From a bacterium (GTDB lineage Bacteria; Pseudomonadota; Alphaproteobacteria; Rhizobiales; Aestuariivirgaceae), in NCBI GenBank assembly GCA_022842165.1, contig JALHQC010000006.1, positions 59,155 through 123,154 on the forward strand: DNA of 64,000 nt, in the 5' to 3' direction. Made by a program: the position numbers and the translations under genes. The notes below the pieces were generated by a model. That model made no database searches. It saw only the letters and a program-made list of their open reading frames with translations, and was not told where the DNA came from. Positions 13,525 to 54,445 of the stretch are shown piece after piece. Every line of letters starts with the position of its first letter. The first letter of the stretch is position 1.

Positions 13525-14289
13525 TCAAAATGTCGTCTGTCCCCGGGCTGTGCCGGGATTTCCAGCGCTTGGGCTGCCTATCAGGCGCCGGTGTTCCCGT
13601 TCCGGCAGCCCGTATGCCGTGCCCGCGAAGGCTTCGAGCCCCGGCCGGTTGGTCACGACGACCATGCCGCGGAACGATTTGATGAGCCTTTCCCCCTCGA
13701 GGATATGCAGCGCCTCGGTTATGCCCGCGCGCCGTACCGAAAGCATGATCGACAGGAATTCGTGCGTCATGGGGAAGGTGGCGCCCACCCGGTCCTGGCA
13801 CATCAGGAGCCAGCGGGCCAGGCGCGTTTCGATCGTATAGGCGCCATTCGCTAGGGCGGTCTGCGACGTCTGGATGCCGAGGATGAATGCATAGCGGAGC
13901 AGGATGGCCCGCAAGGCCGGCCGGGTATCGAATGCTTCGAGCAGCTTTGCTTTCGGCAGTCGCAGGGCGCGGCCCTCGACCTGCACCATCACTTCGTTCG
14001 GATCATGATCGGCCTGCAGCACGATCGATGTGCCTATGAAGCCGTCGTGGCCCACCATTCCCACTTCGACGCGAACATCATCGCTCGTCGTTGCAATGAA
14101 CGAGCAGATGCCGCTCAGGGGAAAATACACGAAGTCATCCGGCGTGTTGCGGAAGCTCAGAACATCGCGCTGGCGAAGTTCGATCAGTTCGAACGACGGC
14201 TCCAGAAACGCGATGTCCGCGGGCAGCATGGCGGCAAGAATCTGGTTCTCGGCATAGGCCTGTAAATCGACTGTCATGTTCCCGGCCAA
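13525..14289 (-). CDS. Crp/Fnr family regulator, copy 1
   Basis: A 254-residue regulator with an N-terminal cyclic-nucleotide-binding-like domain (PLSGICSF...GMVGHDGFIG, about 55-85) and a C-terminal winged helix-turn-helix (MTHEFLSIMLSVRRAGITEAL, about 175-196). It lacks the N-terminal Cys cluster of oxygen-sensing FNR, so the signal is unknown. The TTG at 14289 is chosen because its next residues, AGN, match the ATG start of the paralogue at 16268; an ATG at 14277 is the alternative. It is strongly similar along its length to that paralogue. A conserved dyad (14407-14425) sits about 118 bp upstream, between this gene and the divergent small gene. Confidence 0.88.
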   Translation of the reverse strand: MAGNMTVDLQAYAENQILAAMLPADIAFLEPSFELIELRQRDVLSFRNTPDDFVYFPLSGICSFIATTSDDVRVEVGMVGHDGFIGTSIVLQADHDPNEVMVQVEGRALRLPKAKLLEAFDTRPALRAILLRYAFILGIQTSQTALANGAYTIETRLARWLLMCQDRVGATFPMTHEFLSIMLSVRRAGITEALHILEGERLIKSFRGMVVVTNRPGLEAFAGTAYGLPEREHRRLIGSPSAGNPGTARGQTTF

Positions 14290-14406
14290 CCTGGGGCGGG
14301 AGCGCGCAATATCTCTCAGCCGGCCACGCCCTGAACATTGGCAACCGATGCAGCCGTTTTAACACTCCTGGTCCGGAAAAGATTCCAAATTCGGCACGCA
14401 GCAGAT

Positions 14407-14425
14407 TCTGTACGGAGGCGGACAG
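14407..14425. promoter_or_regulatory. Putative Crp/Fnr-type operator, site A
   Basis: TCTGTACGGAGGCGGACAG, a dyad of TGTAC-N6-GGACA. The 5-6-5 spacing is that of Crp-family sites (TGTGA-N6-TCACA). It lies between the divergent copy-1 regulator (118 bp upstream of its start) and small gene 1 (61 bp upstream of its ATG). Near-identical sites are at 15211 and 16390. Autoregulation is inferred. Confidence 0.5.
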
Positions 14426-14485
14426 TCGCTGGCTGAAGTTTTCCGGCCGGTCTAGCCAACAGCAAAGATGATCAGGAGGCTTGCG

Positions 14486-14680
14486 ATGAAGCATCACCGC
14501 GCCATGGCGACCAAGCACATCGCGGACAGCAAGCGGGAAGGCCGGCCGGTCGACATCTATAAGGTTGTGAGCGATCTCCAGTCCGAGTTCCCGAATGTCG
14601 CCTATGTTACATTGGTCACCATCGTATCGGAGGAAGTGCTGGAGGCTGGTTACGATGCCTTCTGGGATCGGCGGAAGTGA
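14486..14680 (+). CDS. Small conserved protein paired with Crp/Fnr regulator, copy 1 (64 aa)
   Basis: A 64-residue charged protein of unknown function. The start is the ATG at 14486, because a perfect AGGAGG lies at 14474-14479; the longer frame would place this ribosome site inside the gene. It aligns without gaps to the 65-aa product at 15320 (about 24 of 64 identical), with the core PVDxYKVVxxLQxExPNV at residues 21-38 and a conserved Trp near the end. It is divergent from Crp/Fnr copy 1. No domain is recognised. Confidence 0.75.
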   Translation: MKHHRAMATKHIADSKREGRPVDIYKVVSDLQSEFPNVAYVTLVTIVSEEVLEAGYDAFWDRRK

Positions 14681-14739
14681 TGCCCGGAAGGGCTTCGGCC
14701 CAAGCCAAGAGGCGCAAGCCTAGCGCGCTCAATTCCCAA

Positions 14740-15095
14740 ATTTCAGCTCTTTGAAATAAAGTGCCGGCTTCTGTTGCCAGGTGCCGGCGGACCCCGCCTT
14801 GAACTGCTAAGCCCAAGGACTTGATTTCCCTAGCTCAGGCTGCTTACGCAGCCACCGCGACGGGAGCATAGTTGTCGTTGGCAACTATATGTTTAGCCCG
14901 ATAACGTCGGTACCATCACGGGCAAAAAGCTATCCTTTACACCCTCGTCGATCCTGGTTCGCCCCCATCACAGGCCGCCCTCGGGGGGTCGTCCTGCGGC
15001 GGTCTGTGGTGGAGGCGCCGGGTACTGCCCCCGGGTCCGAATGGTTTATTACGATGACCGTTTATCGCCATAGTCATGCCCGTTGCCGGGCGTGA
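14740..15095 (-). ncRNA. ssrA: tmRNA, two-piece alphaproteobacterial type
   Basis: Read on the minus strand, an acceptor piece ends with CGCCTCC-ACCA (15017-15007), a 40-nt hairpin spacer follows (15006-14967), and the coding piece starts at 14966 with GGGGGCGAACCAGGATCGAC. GGGGGCG pairs with CGCCTCC to form the tRNA-like acceptor stem, the hallmark of permuted tmRNA. The tag frame is 14882-14844 and encodes ANDNYAPVAVAA plus TAA, flanked by the hairpin GCTGC-GTAA-GCAGC. Further pseudoknot stems follow. tmRNA rescues stalled ribosomes and marks products for proteolysis. Outer ends are approximate. Confidence 0.93.
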
Positions 15096-15210
15096 CGGTT
15101 TCAATATAGGCGGCGCAGGCCGCGAATGGAAGGGGTGGCGGGAGGGCATGCGCCGCGAGGCATTACACGCTTTGGGTGTCTGACGCGAATTCCGGGCCGC
15201 CGCTGGGGAA

Positions 15211-15229
15211 TCTGTACAAAAATGAACAA
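15211..15229. promoter_or_regulatory. Putative Crp/Fnr-type operator, site B
   Basis: TCTGTACAAAAATGAACAA, the second copy of the TGTAC-N6-GNACA dyad. It is 91 bp upstream of small gene 2 and also upstream of the divergent tmRNA gene, so it could act on either. Confidence 0.45.
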
Positions 15230-15283
15230 TCTCAAGTTGTTAGCTTTGTACGCTACCGTTCCGTTTGTGGCGCGATTCACCCT

Positions 15284-15302
15284 GGTTAACTATGTGTTAA
15301 CC
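15284..15302. promoter_or_regulatory. Perfect inverted repeat before small gene 2
   Basis: GGTTAAC-TATGT-GTTAACC, 7-bp arms and a 5-nt centre, ends 17 bp before the ATG at 15320 and just before its TGGAGG ribosome site. It may be an operator or an mRNA hairpin that affects translation. Confidence 0.45.
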
Positions 15303-15319
15303 TCAATGGAGGCCGAAAG

Positions 15320-15517
15320 ATGAGTCGAGATCGTTTGTGTGTGGTTCGCCGGGTGGCGGGTGCAATCCGTCAGCAGGAGCCGGTAGACGTCTACAAGGTC
15401 GTGGAACAGCTTCAGGCCGAGCTGCCTAACGTTCCGGGCGACGTGCTGCTCCACGATGTCGAGGATGAAATCGCCAAGGCCCGCTGCAGCGCGATCTGGG
15501 AGAAGCGCGAGCGATAG
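15320..15517 (+). CDS. Small conserved protein paired with Crp/Fnr regulator, copy 2 (65 aa)
   Basis: A 65-residue paralogue of the product at 14486, sharing PVDVYKVVEQLQAELPNV and a C-terminal W-E-K-R. A TGGAGG ribosome site lies at a suitable distance from the ATG. It is convergent with Crp/Fnr copy 2, which ends 22 bp away, whereas copy 1 is divergent from its regulator, so the two pairs are not a simple tandem duplication. Function unknown; small size and partnership with a regulator suggest an accessory or modulating protein (inference). Confidence 0.75.
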   Translation: MSRDRLCVVRRVAGAIRQQEPVDVYKVVEQLQAELPNVPGDVLLHDVEDEIAKARCSAIWEKRER

Positions 15518-15539
15518 CGGTTTCGGTCGGGCAAAGCTG

Positions 15540-16268
15540 TCAGCCCGGGGCGGGCGTGATCAGGCGTTTCTGTTCGCGCTCGGGCAAGCCGTAGGCGGTG
15601 CCCGCAAGCGCCTCGAGGCCGAGGCGGTCGCTTATCGAAACGCTGCCGCGCGTCGACTTGATCAGATGCTTGCCCTCCAGCGCATGCAGGGCGTCGGTGA
15701 TCCCGGCGCGGCGCACCGCGAGCATCTTCGACAGGAAGTCGTGGGTCATCGGAAAGCTGCTGCACACCCAGTCCTGGCACATCAGCAGCCAGCGGGCGAG
15801 GCGCACCTCGATGCCGAAATGGCCGTTGACCAGCGCCGTCTGGGCCGATTGTACGCCCATCACATAGATGCTCCGCAGCAGCACCGTGCGTGCCTGAGGC
15901 CGGGTTTCGAAAATCTTGCTCAACGCAGCCCGCGGTATGCGCAGGGCGCGCCCATCGGCCTGCACCATCACTTCATGCGGGTCGTGATCGGCCTGCAGCA
16001 CGATGGCGCTGCCGACAAAACCTTCGCTTCCCACCAGGCCGGTCTCGACGCGGACGTTGTCATCCGTCACCGTGATGAACGAGCAGATGCCGCTCAGCGG
16101 AAAATAGGCAAACTCATCGAGCACGTTGGGGCGGCTGAGAATGTCGCGCTGATGCATGTCGATCGCCTCGAACTGCACGGCAAATGCATCGCGCTCAGTT
16201 GAAGGCATTGCAGCCAGCAGCTGGTTTTCACCGAGGATATCGGAATGTGGAGACACGTTCCCAGCCAT
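15540..16268 (-). CDS. Crp/Fnr family regulator, copy 2
   Basis: A 242-residue regulator similar to copy 1 along its whole length. It has the cNMP-binding-like core (FPLSGICSFITV, GLVGSEGFVGSAIVLQADHDPHEVMVQ) and the winged HTH (MTHDFLSKMLAVRRAGITDAL). No FNR-type Cys cluster is present. The ATG at 16268 is the only good start. Its 5' region shares blocks with that of copy 1, including GCGCCCTGAACATTG, and the conserved dyad lies at nearly the same distance (122 bp). Effector and regulon are unknown. Confidence 0.88.
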   Translation of the reverse strand: MAGNVSPHSDILGENQLLAAMPSTERDAFAVQFEAIDMHQRDILSRPNVLDEFAYFPLSGICSFITVTDDNVRVETGLVGSEGFVGSAIVLQADHDPHEVMVQADGRALRIPRAALSKIFETRPQARTVLLRSIYVMGVQSAQTALVNGHFGIEVRLARWLLMCQDWVCSSFPMTHDFLSKMLAVRRAGITDALHALEGKHLIKSTRGSVSISDRLGLEALAGTAYGLPEREQKRLITPAPG

Positions 16269-16389
16269 TGAGGGGCGAGAGCGTGGAACAGTCTCTCATT
16301 CGGCCGCGCCCTGAACATTGCTGGCCGATGGCATGGTCTTTCACACACAAACCGACGCACAACCAGTTACAAATTCACGTTCCGGCAAG

Positions 16390-16408
16390 TCTGTACGTTG
16401 GCGTACAA
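16390..16408. promoter_or_regulatory. Putative Crp/Fnr-type operator, site C
   Basis: TCTGTACGTTGGCGTACAA, the most symmetric copy (TGTAC-GTTGGC-GTACA). It sits 122 bp upstream of Crp/Fnr copy 2 and 156 bp upstream of thyA. It shares 14 of 19 bases with site A, and the spacing to the regulator gene is conserved. Confidence 0.55.
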
Positions 16409-26763: not shown

Positions 26764-26771
26764 CTCGACCC

Positions 26772-26819
26772 ATGAACAGCATTCTCGTAGTAGGACCGCG
26801 CAACGCCGGGGAGGGTTAA
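26772..26819 (+). CDS. ilv attenuator leader peptide, 15 aa
   Basis: A 15-codon ORF encoding MNSILVVGPRNAGEG. Ile, Leu, Val, Val in succession are the regulatory codons expected of a branched-chain attenuator. It ends in TAA within a perfect palindrome, and it is followed by a terminator before ilvB. No ribosome site can exist if transcription begins at the ATG, as known for some alphaproteobacterial leader peptides such as trpL. Confidence 0.8.
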   Translation: MNSILVVGPRNAGEG

Positions 26820-26874
26820 CCCTCCAGGAACTGGTGGTGTTGCGCGGAATCAGGCTCCCTCGGGGGCCTTTTTT
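26796..26874 (+). promoter_or_regulatory. ilvB transcription attenuator
   Basis: Stem 1 is CCGCGCAACGCC (26796-26807) with GGTGTTGCGCGG (26836-26847). Inside it is the 16-bp palindrome GGAGGGTTAACCCTCC (26810-26825). The terminator is GGCTCC-CTCG-GGGGCC (26853-26868) followed by TTTTTT. A ribosome stalled on the Ile/Leu/Val codons would cover the 5' arm of stem 1 and change downstream folding. The antiterminator pairing was not resolved by eye. Confidence 0.8.
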
Positions 26875-26931
26875 ATTGCCTGAAAGCGACAGGCGTGTTT
26901 GACGGAATATGACAGGATCAAGAGGTTTGAG

Positions 26932-53959: not shown

Positions 53960-54031
53960 GAGGATGTAGCTCAGGGTAGAGCACCGGCATCAAGCCGGGG
54001 GTCGCGGGTTCGATTCCTGCCGTCTTCTCCA
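53960..54031 (+). tRNA. tRNA-like sequence 1, irregular (possible UCA anticodon)
   Basis: A 72-nt cloverleaf: acceptor GAGGATG/CGTCTTC with T-CCA encoded, D-stem GCTC/GAGC with a 6-nt loop, T-arm GCGGG-TTCGATT-CCTGC. The anticodon arm is CCGGC-ATCAA-GCCGG, a 5-nt loop; if the last pair opens, the loop is CATCAAG with anticodon TCA but A instead of U at 33. It is either degenerate or a non-standard tRNA. The antisense frame across both tRNA-like sequences is the typical false ORF. Confidence 0.55.
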
Positions 54032-54103
54032 CTGCGAATAGCTCAGTTGGTAGAGCAACAGACTGTAATCTGTGTGTCGAAGGTTCGAGTCCTTCTACGC
54101 AAT
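54032..54103 (+). tRNA. tRNA-like sequence 2, irregular (GTA or TGT anticodon)
   Basis: Directly abuts sequence 1. D-arm GCTC-AGTTGGTA-GAGC and T-arm GAAGG-TTCGAGT-CCTTC are canonical. The anticodon stem ACAGA/TCTGT encloses only six bases, CTGTAA, reading GTA (Tyr) by position, but the short variable arm is not that of a bacterial tRNA-Tyr. The acceptor has TGCG/CGCA with two mismatches and no CCA. Probably a decaying or foreign tRNA. From 54104 to 54445 I see nothing else. Confidence 0.5.
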
Positions 54104-54445
54104 CTCGCGGCGTAACACCCGCAGGCTGTGAACTGAGCCTTCCGGAGTGGCCGGTGCAACGTCCAAGGCGATCGCGCAAGCGATAGGCGGAGGAGGGACG
54201 CGCCGCCTGCATCACGCCTGTGCCGAGGACTGCCGCCGCAACGCGCCGCGGGATCTGGCTCTGAAGCATCCGCTTCAGGCTCCATCCCGATGGCCCGCAG
54301 CGCTGGCGCCGCGGCCCGTGTGCTGCCGGTCCAAGGCTGCTCCGGAAGGTGTTCGCATTTCAACATCAACCCAAACCCAAACCCCAAGAGGACCACCGCC
54401 TCATGCACTGATGCTGACGCGACTGCCGAGAAGGAGACTGAGAAG

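Follow-up and report, generated by a model that had tools for sequence, protein, structure and literature searches.

The locus described here lies in a 64-kb window, meaning the whole stretch of DNA that was analysed, from an alphaproteobacterium of the Aestuariivirgaceae whose genome comprises 4.3 Mb in 117 contigs and is 99% complete. In this window two paralogous gene pairs, crp1/small1 and small2/crp2, each with one gene for a Crp/Fnr-family regulator and one for a protein of 64 or 65 residues, stand on either side of a permuted transfer-messenger RNA (tmRNA) gene, ssrA (Table 1). The genes of the first pair diverge and those of the second converge; the left neighbor of the locus is sspB (PF04386) and the right neighbor is thyA (PF00303). 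A first-pass annotation, made without database searches, had described the regulators and the small proteins as paralogs, had placed ssrA between the pairs in this arrangement, and had recognized no described family for the small protein. These descriptions are borne out by the alignments and domain matches given below and, for the arrangement, by Rfam, ARAGORN, and the positions of the open reading frames (ORFs).

Table 1 Genes and predicted sites at the crp/small locus (positions in the window).
Feature	Coordinates	Strand	Description
crp1	13525..14277	-	Crp/Fnr-family regulator, 250 aa from ATG; HTH_Crp_2 3e-11, cNMP_binding 2e-7
Predicted operator crp1/small1	14409..14424		TGTACGGAGGCGGACA; 77 bp before small1 ATG, 147 bp before crp1 start
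small1	14486..14680	+	64 aa; without Pfam or NCBIfam family; AGGAGG ahead of ATG
ssrA	14760..15135	-	Permuted alphaproteobacterial tmRNA, RF01849; resident gene, outside the inserted pairs
Predicted distal operator of small2	15213..15228		TGTACAAAAATGAACA; 107 bp before ATG, between the divergent genes ssrA and small2
Predicted proximal operator of small2	15247..15262		TGTACGCTACCGTTCC; 73 bp before ATG
small2	15320..15517	+	65 aa, small1 paralog
crp2	15540..16268	-	Crp/Fnr-family regulator, 242 aa; HTH_Crp_2 1e-10, cNMP_binding 1e-6
Predicted operator of crp2	16392..16407		Perfect palindrome TGTACG-TTGG-CGTACA; 139 bp before crp2 start

Both regulators carry the domains of the Crp/Fnr superfamily above the Pfam cut-offs of 27 bits for HTH_Crp_2 and 27.5 bits for cNMP_binding (43.5 and 31.5 bits in crp1; 41.8 and 28.9 bits in crp2), and they share 63% identity over 230 residues. 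They are the sole such crp genes in their own genome at E ≤ 1e-15, while 21 of 297 genomes from the order, which we take to be the Hyphomicrobiales, contain relatives at E ≤ 1e-35, up to six per genome. In a phylogenetic tree, crp1 and crp2 are sisters (support 100/98) and a homolog from genome G028 branches next (97/93), which suggests that the duplication took place after the split from that homolog. The nearest solved chain to Crp by sequence is 3iwz (E 0.0047); a crp2 structure predicted without an alignment reached a pLDDT (predicted local distance difference test) score of 52 and was not used. Outside the window, we read 28 of 34 listed places with crp homologs, in four of which the match starts inside the protein. 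Several homologs of the subgroup (L068, L059, L065, L070, L052, L055, and L073) adjoin ORFs that we take to encode DUF6894-like small proteins, some of these convergent, or CheY-like single receivers; the subgroup may thus have kept various small partners.

The regions before crp1, crp2, small1, and small2 have in common a 16-bp palindrome of the type TGTACG-N4-CGTACA, which stands in both of the alignable crp1 and crp2 leaders and occurs twice in tandem ahead of small2, at 15213 and 15247. With at most one mismatch to TGTAC-N6-GTACA, the 64 kb contain three sites, all of them at the locus, compared with 0.21 expected and with 0 of 100 shuffles that yielded three; the site at 16392 has no mismatch, those at 14409 and 15213 have one each, and that at 15247 has more than one. 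A matrix derived from 11 sites at crp homologs places the four best sites of the 64 kb at the locus (16392, 17.8; 15247, 16.0; 14409, 15.4; 15213, 15.2), with the next at 9.5. The same four lead if the G270 site is left out of the matrix, and 0 of 300 column-permuted matrices place their top four within 3 kb. The palindrome also recurs at relatives of the regulators: 10 of the 28 crp homologs outside the window have a site with at most two mismatches in the 300 bp ahead of the match, whereas 500 shuffle runs gave a mean of 1.0 and a maximum of 4. The palindrome is likely where both Crp/Fnr regulators bind, which would make the locus a self-regulating switch that turns on the two small proteins.

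Across its 4.3 Mb, the genome has 16 distinct sites. Thirteen lie beyond the locus, of which 12 come with a surrounding locus, and 10 of these 12 fall inside an ORF according to a crude ORF caller. The best of these further sites among those read, C27:25665 (score 17.1; L038 1501-1516; 1120-1353), is taken to be intergenic although it is among the 10 called inside an ORF; it is flanked on one side by a gene for a small exported-looking protein with a paralog nearby and on the other by what is presumably rpsU. At C6:16801 (score 14.8), the site lies 32 bp before a gene that we take to be YbjQ-like. A different perfect palindrome, GGTTAAC-TATGT-GTTAACC, is found at 15283-15301 just ahead of small2; with the small2 promoter placed as in the sister family described below, its two arms would lie on either side of the −10 region.

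The 16-bp palindrome might instead be the site of a different Crp-type protein, such as an ortholog of Clr, the local crp genes being only further targets. Its outer GT...AC is the same as in the Clr sites described in the consulted portion of PMC10127613, but the Clr-type core GTNNCNNNNGNNAC given there does not recur here: at 16392 the window has TGTACGTTGGCGTACA, with G and C at two inner core positions that are C and G in Clr. In other genomes, too, sites are enriched ahead of the genes of this very subgroup, and we consider binding by another Crp-type protein unlikely.

The small proteins align with each other without gaps (38% identity, E 3e-16 in a single comparison), are the sole matches to one another in their own genome at E ≤ 1, and match no family in Pfam or NCBIfam. 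Homologs are scarce. A single-sequence protein search with the small protein returned only itself, and genome searches found matches in 2 of 100 relatives, 3 of 69 genomes of the family, 2 of 297 of the order, and 5 of 385 of the class, the own genome being counted each time; the four class matches beyond it are weak (E > 1e-3), two of them in frames of more than 500 aa. Close homologs with genomic context are limited to three in G001 and two in G019, both sister species of the same genus. Similar genes, which we take to be CYTH-like, lie a few kilobases from small-protein homologs in these two genomes (L011 3126-3635 and L021 7608-8000). A database of genome and metagenome proteins added 28 relatives, mostly of a 60-residue type starting MHMDAILRITAILQ, and P0032 and P0037 are the sole proteins found that match the closeness of small1 to small2. 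The predicted model of small1 has three helices and two short strands (pLDDT 87), and fold searches with it gave weak and mixed matches, several of them winged-helix chains, among which no family stands out. Charge in the small protein is balanced, which favors contact with protein over contact with DNA, and the third helix of small1 is acidic. Word searches of the open-access literature brought up nothing on either the small protein or the palindromic site.

A remote sister family extends the association between the operator, the regulators, and the small proteins. This family, A7, was seeded with an 81-residue ORF of like layout beside the crp gene of genome G270 and consists of proteins of about 70 residues. 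The seed ORF had matches in 9 of 61 genomes searched in the family of G270. A7 was found in 11 of 31 genomes preselected for crp or A7 matches and in 9 of 397 genomes drawn from the order, nearly all places being within one family (f23); the distinct places number 59, in 16 genomes. In a profile–profile comparison, the trimmed A7 profile of 16 rows resembles the small-protein family (A5) with P 1.5e-4, a score that 0 of 300 column shuffles reach; against the six small-family rows that end in W the value is 4.9e-6, in a run without shuffle control. Among the 16 A7 members, DUF2388 is matched by four and TIGR02448 by one, all below cut-off. Fifteen of the 59 places have a Crp gene of the subgroup no more than 1 kb away, and all 15 are downstream of it on the same strand (10 loci, seven genomes), and five of these loci have two A7 genes in tandem; the less selected order-wide draw, with 32 A7 places, accounts for 12 of the 15.

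The operator likewise recurs in the sister family. A site scoring at least 11 stands 79-87 bp before the match at 11 of the 59 A7 places, compared with 0.15 expected for a 26-bp slot, and three of these 11 places are not beside crp; in the window, the corresponding spacing is 73 and 77 bp before the ATG. Eight of the 10 first A7 genes behind crp have the operator, the genes at G133:C31 (2.7) and G809:C11 (8.9) scoring below the threshold. At A7–crp loci the site mostly precedes the small gene and not crp. In several A7 promoters a TTGAAG-like hexamer begins 5 bp past the site and is followed 17 bp further on by one resembling xTAAAT, a layout noted without a control run. Because the A7-adjacent crp genes occupy at least two well supported places in the tree, apart from crp1/crp2, the tie spans the Crp subgroup and a small-protein superfamily across more than one crp lineage. 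A7 and small1/small2 are similar in length, profile, and promoter site and share a Crp neighborhood; they are unlike in that their similarity is only remote and that A7 proteins end in FD while the small proteins end in W.

Several observations weigh against the proposed switch and its link to the small proteins. The palindrome was first spotted by eye in the crp1 and crp2 leaders, which are themselves homologous, and the matrix ranking is only partly independent because the pattern of the window had served to select its sites. Eighteen of the 28 crp homologs outside the window have no upstream site, although for the four matches that start inside the protein the stretch compared is not the true leader. 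Twenty-five have neither small type as a neighbor: no small-family profile matched above noise within 1.5 kb, and A7 neighbors were seen only at L061, L064, and L067. The A7 seed was chosen by eye, as a crp-adjacent ORF among some dozens of neighboring ORFs, so that the P values relating A7 to the small proteins need a discount; the first comparison, with untrimmed rows, gave only 0.007. Six of the seven genomes with A7–crp loci belong to one genus, and the 26-bp slot was picked after the data had been seen. Most crp leaders at A7 loci have poor sites (L176, 7.1; L179, 4.9; L191, 1.0; L192, 5.0; L152, 9.9), those at L189 (18.2) and L190 (10.7) being better, and autoregulation is therefore not general. 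The hexamers before small1 and small2 are weak, and their promoter layout comes without a control comparison. Around the five close homologs in G001 and G019, of which one sits at a contig start, 8-16.5 kb apiece were read and contain no such crp gene, and neither genome has a crp homolog at E ≤ 1e-15. The operator before four of the five is poor (7.0-10.2), and the fifth, G019:C20, has a site of 11.2 at 94 bp that would pass the A7 threshold in a genome lacking a crp match. With these five homologs and the 44 A7 places that have no such crp gene within 1 kb, homologs mostly apart from the regulators, which the first-pass annotation had named as evidence that would undo its proposal, are in part what we find.

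Taken together, the locus is real and partly explained; what is new is the predicted operator, the placing of the pairs around ssrA by insertion, and a sister family whose promoters are laid out in almost the same way. We think it probable, from sequence comparison, that the locus constitutes an autoregulated Crp/Fnr switch that activates two small proteins, which may be winged-helix-like. Crp1 and Crp2 likely bind the 16-bp palindrome, likely regulate their own genes at this locus, and likely activate the small genes; that binding would turn on small1 and small2 is suggested by the activator-like layout of several sister-family promoters. The small protein itself may be a protein-binding effector of the regulon, as its predicted model and charge would allow.

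The small protein could, alternatively, be a dedicated co-regulator that is made under Crp control and damps or adjusts its own Crp by binding to it, in a negative feedback. Such a role would fit the paralogous pairs in one locus, their common operator, the 15 sister-family places directly behind Crp together with the five tandem loci, and the balanced charge with the acidic third helix of small1, but the close homologs in the two genomes without a crp match and the 44 A7 places away from crp tell against it, and we find it rather doubtful. The first-pass annotation had seen here a two-part system in which the small protein acts on the regulator or together with it. The link between the small proteins and the Crp subgroup, by operator and by sister-family adjacency, stands; the proposed working relation does not follow, as the role of a mere target fits the data equally well.

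That annotation had also tied the pairs to ribosome rescue. The tmRNA gene is well supported (277.2 bits against a gathering score of 50 for RF01849; ARAGORN, 14753-15102 on the same strand), and SspB, the product of the neighboring gene, delivers ssrA-tagged proteins to ClpXP. However, sspB is present in all 37 genus members searched, and 18 of the 20 loci read among them have the order sspB-ssrA-thyA with a permuted tmRNA gene and thyA, while crp or small occurs in none of the 20; of the two exceptions, L107 stops at a contig end and L111 has a transfer RNA (tRNA) gene and no ssrA. Judged from this gene order, the pairs were inserted around ssrA in the lineage of the window: crp1–small1 is inserted between sspB and the ssrA 3′ end and small2–crp2 between the ssrA 5′ end and thyA. 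The link to tmRNA is thus positional, and we reject a partnership in ribosome rescue as the principal explanation. A variant in which the pairs control ssrA, and hence ribosome rescue, through the site in the ssrA/small2 spacer draws on the distance of 15213-15228 from the ssrA 5′ end (78 bp by Rfam, 111 bp by ARAGORN), but the same spacer also belongs to small2, whose ATG has another site 73 bp ahead of it, and the 18 genus loci keep ssrA in place without the pairs, which makes this variant very improbable. We likewise give little credence to a combined scheme in which a branch of Crp proteins has its own winged-helix-like micro-regulators, which would be expressed from an operator-fixed promoter, bind Crp, and set its output, the module being doubled around ssrA with tmRNA under its control.

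A foreign origin is not clearly indicated by composition: in 600-bp windows, G+C is 0.575-0.647 at the locus compared with 0.587-0.683 in those parts of the flanks that were read, integrases and attachment repeats not having been searched for. No close relative was found in viral contigs or plasmids, phage records not being part of that search. Genes for tmRNA are described as frequent integration sites of genomic islands in the consulted portion of PMC11915505.

Elsewhere in the window, positions 26767-26885 match the Rhizobiales small RNA Atu_C8 (RF02502, 62.7 bits against 50). A 72-nt cloverleaf tRNA with anticodon UCA lies at 53960-54031 and is called tRNA-SeC by ARAGORN; its length is short for a selenocysteine tRNA, and it might read UGA. 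Directly after it, at 54032-54104, is a weaker tRNA-like gene with a GTA-like loop.

With an operator and target genes predicted, the regulon, the signal, and the function of the small proteins become directly testable, and if the small proteins do feed back on the regulator they would represent a new way of tuning Crp/Fnr proteins. Among known systems, FixK/FnrN of Alphaproteobacteria use a TTGAT-type site, unlike the palindrome here. FnrN holds an iron-sulfur cluster with N-terminal residues, whereas crp2 has cysteines only at positions 62, 164, and 169 and lacks an N-terminal cysteine cluster of the FNR/FnrN type. The likeness lies in the shared Crp/Fnr superfamily and in autoregulation, which the consulted portion of PMC4999443 describes for fixK. 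Another known system is Clr of Sinorhizobium meliloti (Crp cluster G), a regulator of the same superfamily with a 16-bp palindromic site, which most activated promoters have at 42-76 bp ahead of the transcript start (PMC10127613, same portion as above). Clr differs in the inner bases of its half-sites and acts with cAMP or cGMP, and that portion of the paper names no small-protein partner for it, whereas at the locus described here each regulator gene is paired with a gene for a small protein.

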